64,000 bases of DNA, from assembly GCA_016874005.1 (NCBI GenBank), contig VGVQ01000008.1, forward strand, positions 62,001 through 126,000, in the 5' to 3' direction. The notes beneath the pieces were generated by a model, which ran no database searches, had not been told where the DNA came from, and was given only the letters and a program-made list of their open reading frames with translations. The DNA is from Gemmatimonadota bacterium. Lineage in GTDB: Bacteria > Gemmatimonadota > Gemmatimonadetes > Gemmatimonadales > GWC2-71-9. Positions 14,985 through 19,508 of the stretch are shown in pieces. The position numbers and the translations under genes were made by a program. Position 1 is the first letter of the stretch. Every line of letters begins with the position of its first letter.

Positions 14985-15847
14985 TTGTCGTTCCTCTTCG
15001 TGGCAAGGAGATACCTCGGCCGACCGAACAGATCCTCTTCGATCACGACCTCGGACCAGCCGGCTCGCGCCACCAATTCGGCGGTCTCCCGGGGCCGCTG
15101 CTCGGCGATCTCCAGGGCCAGGAGGCCGCCCGGGCGGACCGCCCGCCAGGCGTCGACCGCGAGCCGAGCGGACGCATCGAGACCAGCGGGACCGCTCTCG
15201 AGTGCCTGACGCGGCTCGTAGTCGCGAACGGACGGATCGAGCGCCAGATACTCCTGGCTGGAAACATAGGGGGGATTGGCGACCACCGCGTCGAACACCG
15301 CGTCCCCAAAGCCGGTGGTGAGGTCACCGCGCACCCACCGGACCGGGAGGCCGGTGCGCCGACCGTTCTGGGCGGCGAGGGCGAGTGCCTCCGGCGAGCG
15401 GTCGACTCCGGTCACCTGCCGGTACCCCCCCTCGTCGCGGAGTGCCAGAGCGATGCAGCCGGTACCGGTGCCGACATCGGCAACCGAGCCGTTCGGGCAG
15501 CGGGCCAGGATTCGATCGACCAAGCCCTCCGTCTCCGGCCGCGGGATCAGGGCTCGGCGGTCGACCCGAAGTACCAGGCGCCGGAACCCTGCCAGGCCGG
15601 TCACGTACGCCAGCGGTTCGCCGGCGGCGCGCCGTTCGATCGCCCGATCGAGCCAGCGGCGGCGTTCCGGCTCGACCACCCGATCGCCGTCGATCACGAT
15701 GGAAGCGGGGGCCAGATCGAGCAGATCGGCGAGGATCCGGATCGCGTCGCGCCGGGGGGTCGCCAGTCCGGCTTCCGCGAGACGATGGGTCGCCCGAGCG
15801 AGTGCCCCCGCCAAGGTCAGTCGGAGGCTGGTCGCCTCAGGCGGCAC
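14981..15847 (-). CDS. prmC: Release factor glutamine N5-methyltransferase PrmC
   Basis: Methylates the glutamine of the GGQ motif of release factors with S-adenosylmethionine. The GTG at 15847 gives 288 residues and overlaps the prfA end by 11 bases; the frame remains open upstream to 15916 but only over prfA coding sequence. An N-terminal helical domain (GEPLAYVTGLAGF) is followed by the methyltransferase fold with VADVGTGTGCIALAL and the diagnostic NPPYV motif. Its substrate, PrfA, is encoded immediately upstream, the common arrangement. Confidence 0.94.
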   Translation of the reverse strand: MPPEATSLRLTLAGALARATHRLAEAGLATPRRDAIRILADLLDLAPASIVIDGDRVVEPERRRWLDRAIERRAAGEPLAYVTGLAGFRRLVLRVDRRALIPRPETEGLVDRILARCPNGSVADVGTGTGCIALALRDEGGYRQVTGVDRSPEALALAAQNGRRTGLPVRWVRGDLTTGFGDAVFDAVVANPPYVSSQEYLALDPSVRDYEPRQALESGPAGLDASARLAVDAWRAVRPGGLLALEIAEQRPRETAELVARAGWSEVVIEEDLFGRPRYLLATKRNDK

Positions 15848-16895
15848 TGGCTTCCTCACGGCTGGCAAGTCGGAGCGCCTTGACCAGGTCGTCGAGCCAG
15901 CCGTCGAGCACCTCACCGAGGTTGTGCACCGAGAGGTTGATCCGATGATCGGTCACCCGGCTCTGCGGAAAATTGTAGGTCCGGATCTTCATCGAGCGGT
16001 CGCCGGTGCCAACCATGGCCTTGCGGTCGCGGGATCGGGCGGCCTCCTGCTCCGAGATCATCTTGTCGAGCAGTCGAGCCCGGAGCACTTCCATCGCCTT
16101 GATCTTGTTTTGCAGTTGAGACTTCTGGTCCTGCTGCGAAACCACGATGTTGGTCGGGAGGTGGGTGATCCGCACGGCGCTATCGGTGGTATTGACGCTC
16201 TGCCCCCCGGGACCGCTCGATCGGTAAACATCGATGCGAAGGTCGTTGGGCTCGATCTTGACGTCGACCTCTTCCGCCTCGGGGAGCACGGCAACGGTCG
16301 CCGCCGAGGTGTGGATCCTCCCCTGCGCCTCGGTCGCGGGGACTCGTTGAACTCGGTGCACCCCGGATTCGCGGCGGAACAGCCCGTAGGCGTCAGCACC
16401 CTTGACCGCGACGATGGCCTCGCGAATACCGCCTAGATCGGCCTCGCTGGTCGAAACCGGCTCGACCTTGAGCCCGTGGCGTTCGGCAAACCTGGTATAC
16501 ATCCGCAGCAGGTCGGCGGCGAAGAGCGCCGCCTCGTCGCCGCCCGTCCCGGCCCGGATCTCGACGATGGCGTTACGGTCCTCCAACGGATCGCGGGGAA
16601 TCAGGAGTTCCTCGAGTTCCGGGCCGATCCGCGCCAGCTCAGCCTCGAGACCGGCCTGGTCCACAGCAGCCAAAGCCGCCAGCTCGGCGTCGTCGGAGGC
16701 GGCCAACTCCCGGGCTTCGGCCAACTCGCGCTGGGCCTTTAGATACTGTCCCCCTAGACGCACAATGGGCGCGAGCCTGGCGTGCTCGCGCCCGAGAGCC
16801 GAACGTCGGGTGGGATCCTTGGCCAGACCGGGGTCGGCCAGCTCGCGTGCGACTTCCTCCGCCCGAGAGAGGGCCAGGCGGAGTTTTGGCTCCAC
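15837..16895 (-). CDS. prfA: Peptide chain release factor 1
   Basis: Terminates translation at UAA and UAG. The 352 residues begin at GTG 16895. The stop-codon recognition motif is PAT (186-188, in RVPATEAQGRIHTS), which marks RF1 rather than RF2 (SPF). The peptidyl-transferase motif GGQ is at 230-232 in SSGPGGQSVNTTDSAV, the target of PrmC. The start lies three bases past the rpmE stop. Part of the operon rpmE-prfA-prmC-ylbF-tmk-S41-DUF2520. Confidence 0.97.
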   Translation of the reverse strand: MEPKLRLALSRAEEVARELADPGLAKDPTRRSALGREHARLAPIVRLGGQYLKAQRELAEARELAASDDAELAALAAVDQAGLEAELARIGPELEELLIPRDPLEDRNAIVEIRAGTGGDEAALFAADLLRMYTRFAERHGLKVEPVSTSEADLGGIREAIVAVKGADAYGLFRRESGVHRVQRVPATEAQGRIHTSAATVAVLPEAEEVDVKIEPNDLRIDVYRSSGPGGQSVNTTDSAVRITHLPTNIVVSQQDQKSQLQNKIKAMEVLRARLLDKMISEQEAARSRDRKAMVGTGDRSMKIRTYNFPQSRVTDHRINLSVHNLGEVLDGWLDDLVKALRLASREEASAA

Positions 16896-17190: not shown

Positions 17191-17220
17191 ATTATAGCCT
17201 GGTAACCGACCACCGCTCAA
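17191..17220 (-). promoter_or_regulatory. Sigma-70-type promoter for rpmE operon
   Basis: On the minus strand TTGAGC (17220-17215) is followed after 18 bases by the perfect -10 box TATAAT (17196-17191). The predicted start of transcription, near 17184, leaves a leader of about 60 bases before the rpmE GTG. That leader may hold an L31 autoregulatory element, but I cannot recognise one with confidence. Confidence 0.75.
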
Positions 17221-17243
17221 GCCAGCCCCGCCTCCACCACAGT

Positions 17244-17259
17244 TGTGACTTGGATCACA
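17244..17259. promoter_or_regulatory. Crp-family binding site TGTGA-N6-TCACA
   Basis: The sequence TGTGACTTGGATCACA matches the CRP half-sites TGTGA and TCACA exactly with six bases between. Its centre is about 51 bases before the predicted start of the downstream crp-like gene and about 67 bases before that of rpmE on the other strand. Autoregulation by the adjacent Crp-type protein is the simplest reading; dual control of rpmE is possible. Confidence 0.72.
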
Positions 17260-17266
17260 CCGGCGC

Positions 17267-17296
17267 TTGCGAGCCGGCCGCGCGGGACCTTATGCT
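17267..17296 (+). promoter_or_regulatory. Promoter of the crp-like gene, probably giving a leaderless transcript
   Basis: TTGCGA (17267-17272), an 18-base spacer and TATGCT (17291-17296). Only six bases separate the -10 box from the ATG at 17303, so transcription would start at or next to the start codon. No Shine-Dalgarno sequence is present, which agrees with a leaderless message. Confidence 0.6.
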
Positions 17297-17302
17297 GCGA
17301 CC

Positions 17303-17977
17303 ATGGCGACCCCGGTCGAAGTCCTTCGCGGGATCCCGATGTTCCAGCGGCTGGCTCCGGACGATCTGGCCGCCCTCGGGGCCCTGCTGCGGGAGCGGCG
17401 GTTCCCCAAGGGAGCGATCGTCGTCTCCCAGGGCGACCCTGGCGACGCCCTCTACCTGATCAGTGCCGGACAGCTCAAGGTCGCCGTGTTCGCCGAGGAC
17501 GGCCGCGAGGTCATTCTGTCGGTACTGGCGGCCGGCGGTTTCTTCGGCGAAATGGCCCTCCTCGATGACGAACCGCGATCGGCCCACGTCATCGCGATGA
17601 CGGATGCGGTGCTCCTCCAGCTTCGGCGAGAGGATTTCAGGGCGCGACTCCGGGGCTCGCCGGATCTGGGCATCGCTCTCTTGCGGGAACTGTCGGGCCG
17701 CCTCCGGCGCGCCGACGATACCATCGCGAGCTTGGCCCTCCTCGACGTCAACGGGCGGATTGCGACCCTCCTCCTCGATTTCGCCCGCCAGGAGGACGGC
17801 CGGCGAATCACCCGCAAACTGACCCATGCGACCATCGCCCAAATGGTGGGGGCCAGCCGGGAGACGGTCTCCCGCGCCATGCGCCAGTTCGCGCTCCGGG
17901 GCGCCATCGCGGTCAATCGCCGGGAGATCGTCATAATGGACCCCGAGTCGCTCCGCGGTTCGGCGCAGCGGACCTGA
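17303..17977 (+). CDS. Crp/Fnr-family transcriptional regulator
   Basis: A 224-residue one-component regulator from ATG 17303. Residues 1-120 form the cyclic-nucleotide-binding-like beta roll (LYLISAGQLKVAVF, GGFFGEMALLDDEPRSAHV, the latter resembling the phosphate-binding cassette region). A long helix follows, then a winged helix-turn-helix with THATIAQMVGASRETVSRAMRQF near 175-198. There are no Fnr-type N-terminal cysteines. It likely binds the perfect CRP-type box just upstream. The next gene, an MBL-fold hydrolase, begins five bases after its stop. Confidence 0.92.
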   Translation: MATPVEVLRGIPMFQRLAPDDLAALGALLRERRFPKGAIVVSQGDPGDALYLISAGQLKVAVFAEDGREVILSVLAAGGFFGEMALLDDEPRSAHVIAMTDAVLLQLRREDFRARLRGSPDLGIALLRELSGRLRRADDTIASLALLDVNGRIATLLLDFARQEDGRRITRKLTHATIAQMVGASRETVSRAMRQFALRGAIAVNRREIVIMDPESLRGSAQRT

Positions 17978-17982
17978 CCGGC

Positions 17983-18840
17983 GTGCCCTGGGCCATCCGG
18001 TTCTGGGGGACCCGCGGTTCGATCCCGGCACCGGGGCCTGGGACGGTTCGGTACGGCGGCAACACCGCTTGCCTCGAACTGGTCGCCCCGGATGGCCGAC
18101 GCCTGGTGCTCGACGCCGGGACCGGGATACGGTCCTTGGGTCTTGCCCTGCCGCCATCGGCACGGGACCCGGTCGTGATCCTTCTGAGCCACACCCACTG
18201 GGACCACATCCAGGGACTCCCGTTTTTCGCTCCCCTCTATCGTCCCGAAGCGACCGTATCGATCATCGGTCCGGCACCGGCCACCGGGCGTCTCGGGGAC
18301 GTTCTTCGCGACCAGATGGGTGCCGCGGTGTTCCCGGTGTCTTTGTCCGCCTGGACCGCCACCCTCGACGTTCGCGAGGTCGCCGAAGGTGCCTTCGAGG
18401 CTGGTGGGTTTTCGGTCAAGGCGCTGCACCTGTGTCACCCCGGCACCACCCTGGGGTATCGGATCGGCATTCAACCGGGGTCGCCGGAATTGGCCTATCT
18501 AACCGATAACGAGATCGCCGGGTGGGACGCGCCAGATCGGCGGGCCCGCCTTGTACGGTTCTTGCACGCCTGCGACACGATGATCCACGACGCGATGTAC
18601 CTCTCGAACCGGGGAGCCGGCCGCCGAGGGTGGGGGCACTCGACCGCGGCCGAAGCCGTCCGCCTCGCGAGCGAGGCCCGAGTCAACCGGCTGGTCCTGT
18701 TCCACCACGACCCGGAACACACTGACGACGACCTCGAACGACTGCTCACCGAAGCGGAGCAGGTCCGGGCCGACTCGGGCGGCCGATTCGACATTCAGAT
18801 CGCGGCGGAGGGCGTCGCCCTCGGGCCGGCCGGAGGGTGA
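17983..18840 (+). CDS. MBL-fold metallo-hydrolase
   Basis: A 285-residue metallo-beta-lactamase-fold protein beginning at GTG 17983 with IRFWGTRGSIPAPG, as in the PhnP/cyclic-phosphodiesterase-like branch. The metal motif is HTHWDHIQG near residue 67; further ligands are probably in LTDNE and in FHHDPEHTDDDL. The family contains phosphodiesterases and RNase Z relatives, so hydrolysis of a phosphodiester is likely but the substrate is not known. Its position directly behind a Crp-type regulator makes a cyclic nucleotide an attractive guess only. Confidence 0.82.
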   Translation: MPWAIRFWGTRGSIPAPGPGTVRYGGNTACLELVAPDGRRLVLDAGTGIRSLGLALPPSARDPVVILLSHTHWDHIQGLPFFAPLYRPEATVSIIGPAPATGRLGDVLRDQMGAAVFPVSLSAWTATLDVREVAEGAFEAGGFSVKALHLCHPGTTLGYRIGIQPGSPELAYLTDNEIAGWDAPDRRARLVRFLHACDTMIHDAMYLSNRGAGRRGWGHSTAAEAVRLASEARVNRLVLFHHDPEHTDDDLERLLTEAEQVRADSGGRFDIQIAAEGVALGPAGG

Positions 18841-18842
18841 CG

Positions 18843-19508
18843 ATGGGTATCCTGCGCTGCGCGCTGGTGGCTCTGGCCTGTTCTGCTGCTGCACCCCACG
18901 GGGTAGCGCAGACGGACCGGTCGGTGGCGGTGCTGCCGCTCGAAAACAGCGGGAGCTACGGGCGCGACAAGGACGAGTTCGACGCCCTGCGCCGCGGCCT
19001 GGCCGGGATGCTCGGCGCCGAGTTGACTGCCCGCGGCGCCCGGGTGGTGAGCCGGGAGCAGGTCCAAAAGCTGGTGGACGCCGAGGCATCCCCCGCCGAT
19101 CGTGTCGACCTCGCCACCGCGTCGCGAATCGGGAAGGCGCTGGGGGCCCGCTACGTGGTCTCAGCCAGCTTCGTCGACCTGTACGGCGACTTCCGGATCG
19201 ACGCCAACATCATCGACGTAACCAGCGGCGCGGTGATCAAGGTGGTCCGGAGCGACCCGAAACTCACCGATCGTCGCCAGATGTTCCGGATCGTCCAGTC
19301 GGTCGCCGGCCGATTGGCTGAGTCGATGCAGCTGTCCGGCAGTGGAACGACTCGCACCCTGGCCACGGAGGCCTTGGTGGCCTACGCCCGCGGAATCTGG
19401 TACCTCGACCGCGGCGACCGGGCCAAGGCCGCGACCGCTCTGAGCGAGGCGGTGCGGGCCGCCCCGGATTTCGCCGAGGCGAAGGCCGAGCTGGCCAGGA
19501 TCGGGTGA
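18843..19508 (+). CDS. Exported CsgG/TolB-N-terminal-like protein with a TPR-like tail
   Basis: A 221-residue exported protein (signal peptide to about residue 23, AxA-Q). The core begins SVAVLPLENSGSYGRDKDEFDALRRGL and contains GARYVVSASFVDLYGDFRIDANIIDV, the alpha/beta pattern shared by CsgG, FlgO and TolB N-terminal domains. The last 45 residues look like one TPR unit (ALVAYARGIWYLDRGDRAKAATALSEAV). ATG 18843 is favoured because GGAGG precedes it by about six bases. An outer-membrane or periplasmic role is inferred; the exact function is unknown. Confidence 0.68.
   Translation: MGILRCALVALACSAAAPHGVAQTDRSVAVLPLENSGSYGRDKDEFDALRRGLAGMLGAELTARGARVVSREQVQKLVDAEASPADRVDLATASRIGKALGARYVVSASFVDLYGDFRIDANIIDVTSGAVIKVVRSDPKLTDRRQMFRIVQSVAGRLAESMQLSGSGTTRTLATEALVAYARGIWYLDRGDRAKAATALSEAVRAAPDFAEAKAELARIG

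Follow-up and report, generated by a model that had tools for sequence, protein, structure and literature searches.

The window considered here, the whole stretch of 64,000 nucleotides that was analysed, contains a Crp-type regulator gene (crp; 17303..17977, plus strand; product P0001, 224 aa), which is followed after 5 nt by a gene encoding a metallo-beta-lactamase-fold protein that resembles atypical class-II phosphodiesterases (product P0002; 17983..18840, plus strand). On the other side of crp and divergent from it lie rpmE (L31; 16899..17123, minus strand, with a GTG start read by hand) and prfA (release factor 1; 15837..16895, minus strand). The gene after that of the enzyme (18837-19508, plus strand) gives a weak CsgG match and a weak match to the cyclase-associated model TIGR04510.

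A promoter scan places in front of rpmE the sequence TTGAGC-N18-TATAAT (minus strand, 17220 to 17191), with the -35 element at 17215..17220 and the -10 element at 17191..17196, both on the minus strand. It matches 10/12 consensus bases, and one such promoter was found against 0.2 in shuffled sequences; the perfect TATAAT that the original prediction attributed to rpmE is indeed seen at 17191-17196 on the minus strand. The crp-like promoter is weak: it is absent from the scan output, and its possible -35 (TTGCGA, 17267..17272, plus strand) and -10 (TATGCT, 17291..17296, plus strand) elements were picked out by eye, giving an inferred transcription start at about the ATG (17303). TATGCT also precedes crp in all five congeners.

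Between the divergent rpmE promoter and the Crp-type gene lies TGTGACTTGGATCACA (17244-17259), an exact TGTGA-N6-TCACA box present just as originally claimed. It is the sole match in the window at up to one mismatch, a tolerance at which 43/100 shuffles hold at least one match. Under a first-order Markov model derived from the window, the exact 16-mer is expected 0.014 times per 64 kb, 3.7e-5 times in the 182-nt rpmE-crp intergenic region and 0.85 times per 3.885 Mb, and for the 8-base core GTGA-N6-TCAC the same intergenic region has an expectation of 0.002. The presence of an exact box at this very place is notable, though the feature was spotted after the fact.

Searching the genome for TGTGA-N6-TCACA, as had been suggested along with the original prediction, does recover further places, but what they say about Crp is confounded. 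In the own genome the exact sequence occurs at 4 places (0 for the reversed control), and 3 of the 4 read TTGTGA-N6-TCACAA and closely precede rex, atpA and a cupredoxin gene (L001, L002 and L004, outside the window, at position 1501-1516 of each). The Rex and AtpA proteins of this genome score above their NCBIfam cut-offs, and the cupredoxin matches plastocyanin below its cut-off. The same three genes carry Rex-type operators in the congeners, and a count over all six genus genomes puts 16 of the 20 exact boxes in front of relatives of rex (6), atpA (4) and the cupredoxin gene (6), where they look like Rex operators, the operator of Staphylococcus aureus Rex being given as TTGTGAAW4TTCACAA in the accessible part of PMC2883068. 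The exact boxes of the genus that are not of this type show no excess: 4 are present in 6 genomes, the window box included, where chance alone would give about 5.7 in about 25.9 Mb. Genome-wide box counts were rejected as backing for a Crp regulon because 16/20 of the genus places are Rex-type.

The class of the window box was judged by position weight matrices. On a matrix of 37 sites from the crp junction, which were picked for an exact core, it scores 19.2, inside the leave-one-out range of 13.9-19.5; on a matrix of 14 distinct Rex-type sites of the genus it scores 13.1, where the sites themselves, each left out once, reach 28.5-34.7. It is one base apart from the stop-codon box of locus L011. 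By these scores the window box looks like a candidate operator of the Crp class rather than the Rex class.

The Crp-type protein and the neighbouring enzyme

P0001 carries both domains of the Crp/Fnr family above their cut-offs, PF00027 with 93.5 bits (cut-off 27.5) and PF13545 with 70.3 bits (cut-off 27), which upholds the assignment of the gene to the right of the box as Crp-type; on NF008732, the equivalog model of cAMP-activated CRP, it stays under the cut-off, with 118 bits vs 266. The phosphate-binding residues E72, R82, S83 and R123 are all present in P0001, and across 60 aligned sequences E72 and R123 are retained in 59/60, R82 in 52/60 and S83 in 53/60. The adenine contacts T127/S128 of classic CRP are changed, being Ala/Asp in 51/57 and Val/Asp in 6/57 related sequences, so cAMP may not be the ligand. 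The recognition helix has the RETVxR form, reading RETVSR in 56/57 and RETISR in 1/57 of the related sequences (RETVGR in E. coli). The near relatives L114-L116 come from Gemmatimonadetes MAGs, and distant Crp proteins were left out.

A search with the Crp protein gave matches at E <= 1e-20 in 55/61 genomes, the own genome counted. Distant Crp/Fnr proteins with 31-33% identity were seen at L063, L064 and L065 (genomes G045, G047 and G055), with RES instead of RET and without D128; G055 carries the usual Crp relative besides its distant one. The crp gene of L042 (G053) contains one in-frame TAG.

The best PDB matches of P0001 are CRP (Rv3676) of Mycobacterium tuberculosis and GlxR of Corynebacterium glutamicum. 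These have the same domains as P0001, with the RET motif lying in the helix of the solved chain, and T127/N128 of the M. tuberculosis chain correspond to Ala/Asp in P0001. Another Crp-type protein, DdrI of Deinococcus radiodurans, has Ala at the T127 position, as here, and Tyr at the S128 position, where P0001 has Asp; according to the available text of PMC11253593, it binds TGTGA-N6-TCACA DNA without cAMP.

P0002 combines PF12706 with the motif SHTHWDH, matching the definition of atypical class-II phosphodiesterases in the portion of PMC9293780 at hand, where PF12706 and [T/S]HXHXDH are common to Rv1339, YhfI and C. glutamicum CpdA. Unlike that group, P0002 falls far under the NF041851 cut-off (49.1 bits vs 400) and is RNase Z-like too. 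All 39 of the P0002 relatives scanned match NF041851 at E <= 0.001, and the YhfI structure 6KNS matches the enzyme profile at 3.6e-6. The MBL alignment A1 holds 39 of 44 computed sequences. The resemblance to RNase Z is itself under the TIGR02651 cut-off (79 bits vs 292.95), and the idea that the enzyme is the housekeeping RNase Z was rejected, a 338-bit RNase Z being encoded elsewhere in the genome. P0002 is probably an enzyme that degrades cyclic nucleotides.

The distribution of the genes was surveyed in a sample of 200 genomes of the phylum, 115 of which were tallied to the same order, with Crp called at E <= 1e-40. Among the 93 order genomes with Crp, a PF00211 cyclase is found in 93/93 and the enzyme in 91/93; among the 22 without Crp, the corresponding figures are 5/22 and 0/22. 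The class III cyclase of the own genome is an FHA-GAF-cyclase protein. In genera g35, g39, g48 and g49, genomes without Crp are also without the enzyme and mostly without the cyclase, as if the genes had been lost as a unit.

Sites downstream and upstream of crp

The enzyme gene follows crp in 53 of the 61 loci of the first set; in 50 of these 53, the divergent gene upstream is rpmE or prfA. In the order (Gemmatimonadetes), 36/40 of the spacers that lead up to the enzyme gene and are 60 nt or longer contain GTGA-N6-TCAC, in most cases across the crp stop codon, and over these 40 spacers this palindrome ranks first (36) of 256 x 11 spaced palindromes, with TCAC-N9-GTGA second (32) and the third at 14. 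The whole pattern reads GTGA over the stop TGA, N6, TCAC, N9, GTGA. When the 35 loci with a TGA stop are anchored on that codon alone, T, C, A and C at +7 to +10 are conserved at 80-91%, compared with 34-63% for columns +1 to +6 and +11 to +19, and the element survives with a TAA or TAG stop in L035, L037 and L047. In a held-out set of 56 loci, whose genomes are new, yet several from genera of the first set, the core is found in 33/42 spacers of at least 60 nt, in tandem form in 28, and in 1/12 shorter spacers; the 33 include L247 and L257, which count because, once L052 had been seen, the search for spacer cores was extended 26 nt into crp (31/42 without them). Long spacers without the core number 4/40 in the first set and 9/42 in the held-out set.

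A TANNNT element follows the spacer boxes with a peak at 46 bp, that is 23 bp past the second site, in 30/71 spacers, compared with 5 at 45 bp, 6 at 23 bp and a mean of about 1% per offset. If the transcription start is taken 7 nt past the -10 element, the site centre falls at about -42.5, a class-II-like position on inferred starts. Searched over genomes, the tandem motif gives 63 matches in 45/61 genomes vs 5 for the control, and none in the genome of the window. By hand tally, 33/63 lie at the crp-enzyme junction, the other 30 corresponding to 29 fetched regions. Some tandem matches away from the junction precede secreted-lipoprotein or sigma-factor genes, as judged by ORF, and at L203, L206 and L209 the motif stands beside secreted-lipoprotein genes that are alike by eye.

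In the genus of the window, the distance from crp to the enzyme gene is 1-5 nt, and the gap of 5 nt in the window species is too short to hold the spacer site. The five congeners lack the spacer site as well as a box before crp: with up to two mismatches and within 400 nt upstream of crp, the box is absent in 5/5. The original prediction had itself named absence of the box from close relatives as a refutation, and in all five of them the box is missing at the same place; a test on the 61 loci led us to reject the idea that the box is conserved between rpmE and crp. In one congener (L010, genome G004), rpmE and crp lie about 1.2 kb apart.

Some lineages do carry a box before crp. The exact core GTGA-N6-TCAC occurs there in 3/49 usable first-set loci, the window among the three, after 8 of the 61 loci without an adjacent enzyme gene and 4 without a usable upstream region had been left out. 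These upstream cores fall in loci that have no spacer core: 3/15 vs 0/34 with one in the first set (Fisher 0.025, with L052 and L041 scored as misses) and 9/22 vs 0/25 in the held-out set (Fisher 3.7e-4), relatedness being ignored in both tests and in the other counts given here. For the held-out comparison, 9/56 loci without a usable upstream region were left out, and L240 and L258, with no enzyme gene on the fetched stretch, were counted as having no spacer core (9/20 without them). Upstream boxes with mismatches, at L015, L042, L044 and L046 (two mismatches) and at L051 and L065 (one), stand outside the exact-core counts. Of the 11 upstream-box cases besides the window, 8 belong to genus g38, 2 to g60 and 1 (G086) to g43, the other 5 examined members of g43 retaining the spacer core, unlike G086. 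It speaks against such a link that neither a spacer core nor a core before crp is present in 12/15 loci without a spacer core in the first set, the five congeners included, and in 13/22 in the held-out set. The sequences of these other lineages support a box before crp as a precedent for the placement seen in the window.

The upstream boxes also follow a spacing rule, which the window box breaks. TANNNT stands 23 bp after the box in 11/11 upstream boxes besides that of the window (mean rate about 1% per offset), and the window has its TATGCT 32 bp after the box instead. The centre of the window box is at about -51.5 from the inferred crp start and about -67.5 from the inferred rpmE start, matching no standard position of CRP activation (-41.5, -61.5 and so on); for crp, -51.5 is about one helical turn from -41.5. 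For E. coli CRP, sites near -50 give very weak activation of sigma-70 promoters in the available part of PMC2859248. Since the window box breaks the 23-bp rule, it may here have a weak effect, a repressive one or none.

A proposed feedback module and its alternatives

Observed in these genomes are the synteny, the box itself and the conserved site, together with the spacing rule and the co-occurrence of the three genes. We rather favour, with some reserve, the reading in which the window box serves the Crp-type protein encoded next to it as an operator and belongs to a feedback module for a cyclic nucleotide. In this module the cyclic nucleotide would be made by a class III cyclase and sensed by Crp, which would control the neighbouring gene, and the metallo-beta-lactamase-fold product of that gene would break the signal down. 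For the larger part of the order, as far as examined, control would pass through Crp-class sites in the short crp-enzyme spacer, the first lying over the crp stop codon and a second, half-conserved one placed class-II-like, 23 bp beyond it. Certain lineages that lack the spacer site have a box before crp, which would drive both genes, and in the window species, with its gap of 5 nt between crp and the enzyme gene, the box before crp would fit a relocated site. Crp binding to the box, the sign of the regulation, the ligand and the enzyme substrate are predictions from sequence, and autoregulation of crp through the window box is plausible on the same grounds. A wider proposal, of an order-wide circuit of class III cyclase, Ala/Asp-pocket Crp and atypical class-II phosphodiesterase, in which the ligand would not be cAMP or would be read unlike in classic CRP, the self-limiting operator would switch between the flanks of crp in the course of evolution and the window would show one such move, to an untypical position, is offered tentatively and seems unlikely.

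A partial parallel is the Vfr-cpdA pair of Pseudomonas aeruginosa, in which a phosphodiesterase gene is activated by the very Crp-family protein whose ligand the enzyme removes, an arrangement here proposed from sequence. The difference is that here the enzyme gene adjoins crp, the site overlaps the crp stop and the enzyme has the metallo-beta-lactamase fold, P. aeruginosa CpdA belonging to another phosphodiesterase class. The activation by Vfr of cpdA, its own phosphodiesterase gene, is reported in the accessible part of PMC6363681, citing Fuchs et al. 2010, and MrpC of Myxococcus is a Crp-like regulator reported to curb c-di-GMP levels (PMC8844925). By title and abstract opening, the matches listed include no earlier work on cyclic-nucleotide signalling in this phylum and none on a crp-phosphodiesterase module.

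The main competitor of this module is that the window box is fortuitous or a decaying relic, with crp and the enzyme gene forming one operon under an unregulated promoter in the genus. The absence of the box in 5/5 congeners, its departure from the 23-bp rule and the number of non-Rex exact boxes in the genus, which is not above chance, all speak for this; we nevertheless hold it to be unlikely, though well worth keeping in mind, as the probability of an exact box in the 182-nt region is about 3.7e-5, the core of the window box agrees in its letters with the junction sites, and other lineages put a relocated site before crp. A Rex operator, tying the site to NADH/NAD balance, would agree with the rex gene of this genome and with the 16 of 20 exact genus places before rex, atpA or the cupredoxin gene. 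The window box shares with the Rex operator (PMC2883068, as far as available) the outer letters TGTGA-N6-TCACA, but it is without the A/T-rich core and the last, outer A of TTGTGAAW4TTCACAA, and its 13.1 on the Rex-type matrix, vs 28.5-34.7 for the 14 sites, led us to reject Rex as its owner, a reading to which we give hardly any credence. That the conserved spacer element is instead an RNA structure, a terminator or attenuator, is very improbable: GTGA-N6-TCAC and TCAC-N9-GTGA are both able to pair in RNA, but by inspection the arms stay constant in sequence instead of covarying, and the same letters turn up again upstream of crp, where their distance to a -10-like element is fixed, and match the CRP half-site.

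The original prediction went further and let one site both autoregulate crp and set expression of the rpmE-prfA-tmk operon. Its basis is the adjacency of the box to both promoters, to which may be added that the divergent arrangement is old, with rpmE or prfA upstream in 50/53 loci, and that the g38 and g60 loci have their box near prfA. We regard such double control as very improbable. The box is not conserved in the rpmE-crp region, being missing in 5/5 congeners, and in g38 and g60 it keeps a fixed 23 bp from the -10-like element on the crp side. The rpmE promoter is near consensus already, and the box lies at about -67.5 from the inferred rpmE start, one base beyond the E. coli CRP site at -66.5 that gave a factor of 0.99, that is no effect, in PMC6301791 (-67.5 is not among the positions in the accessible part of that source). 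The Crp-type site that is conserved in the order is that of the crp-enzyme spacer, on the other side of crp. What survives of the original prediction is the Crp-type gene, the Crp-class box and, with the precedent of other lineages, a box placed before crp; regulation of rpmE, prfA and tmk is not supported.

Counting TGTGA-N6-TCACA in such genomes mostly recovers Rex-type operators, which is a warning for searches of this kind. If the proposed module is true, it names a regulator, an operator, a promoter class and an enzyme, and it would offer a case of an operator changing place while staying with one gene pair.
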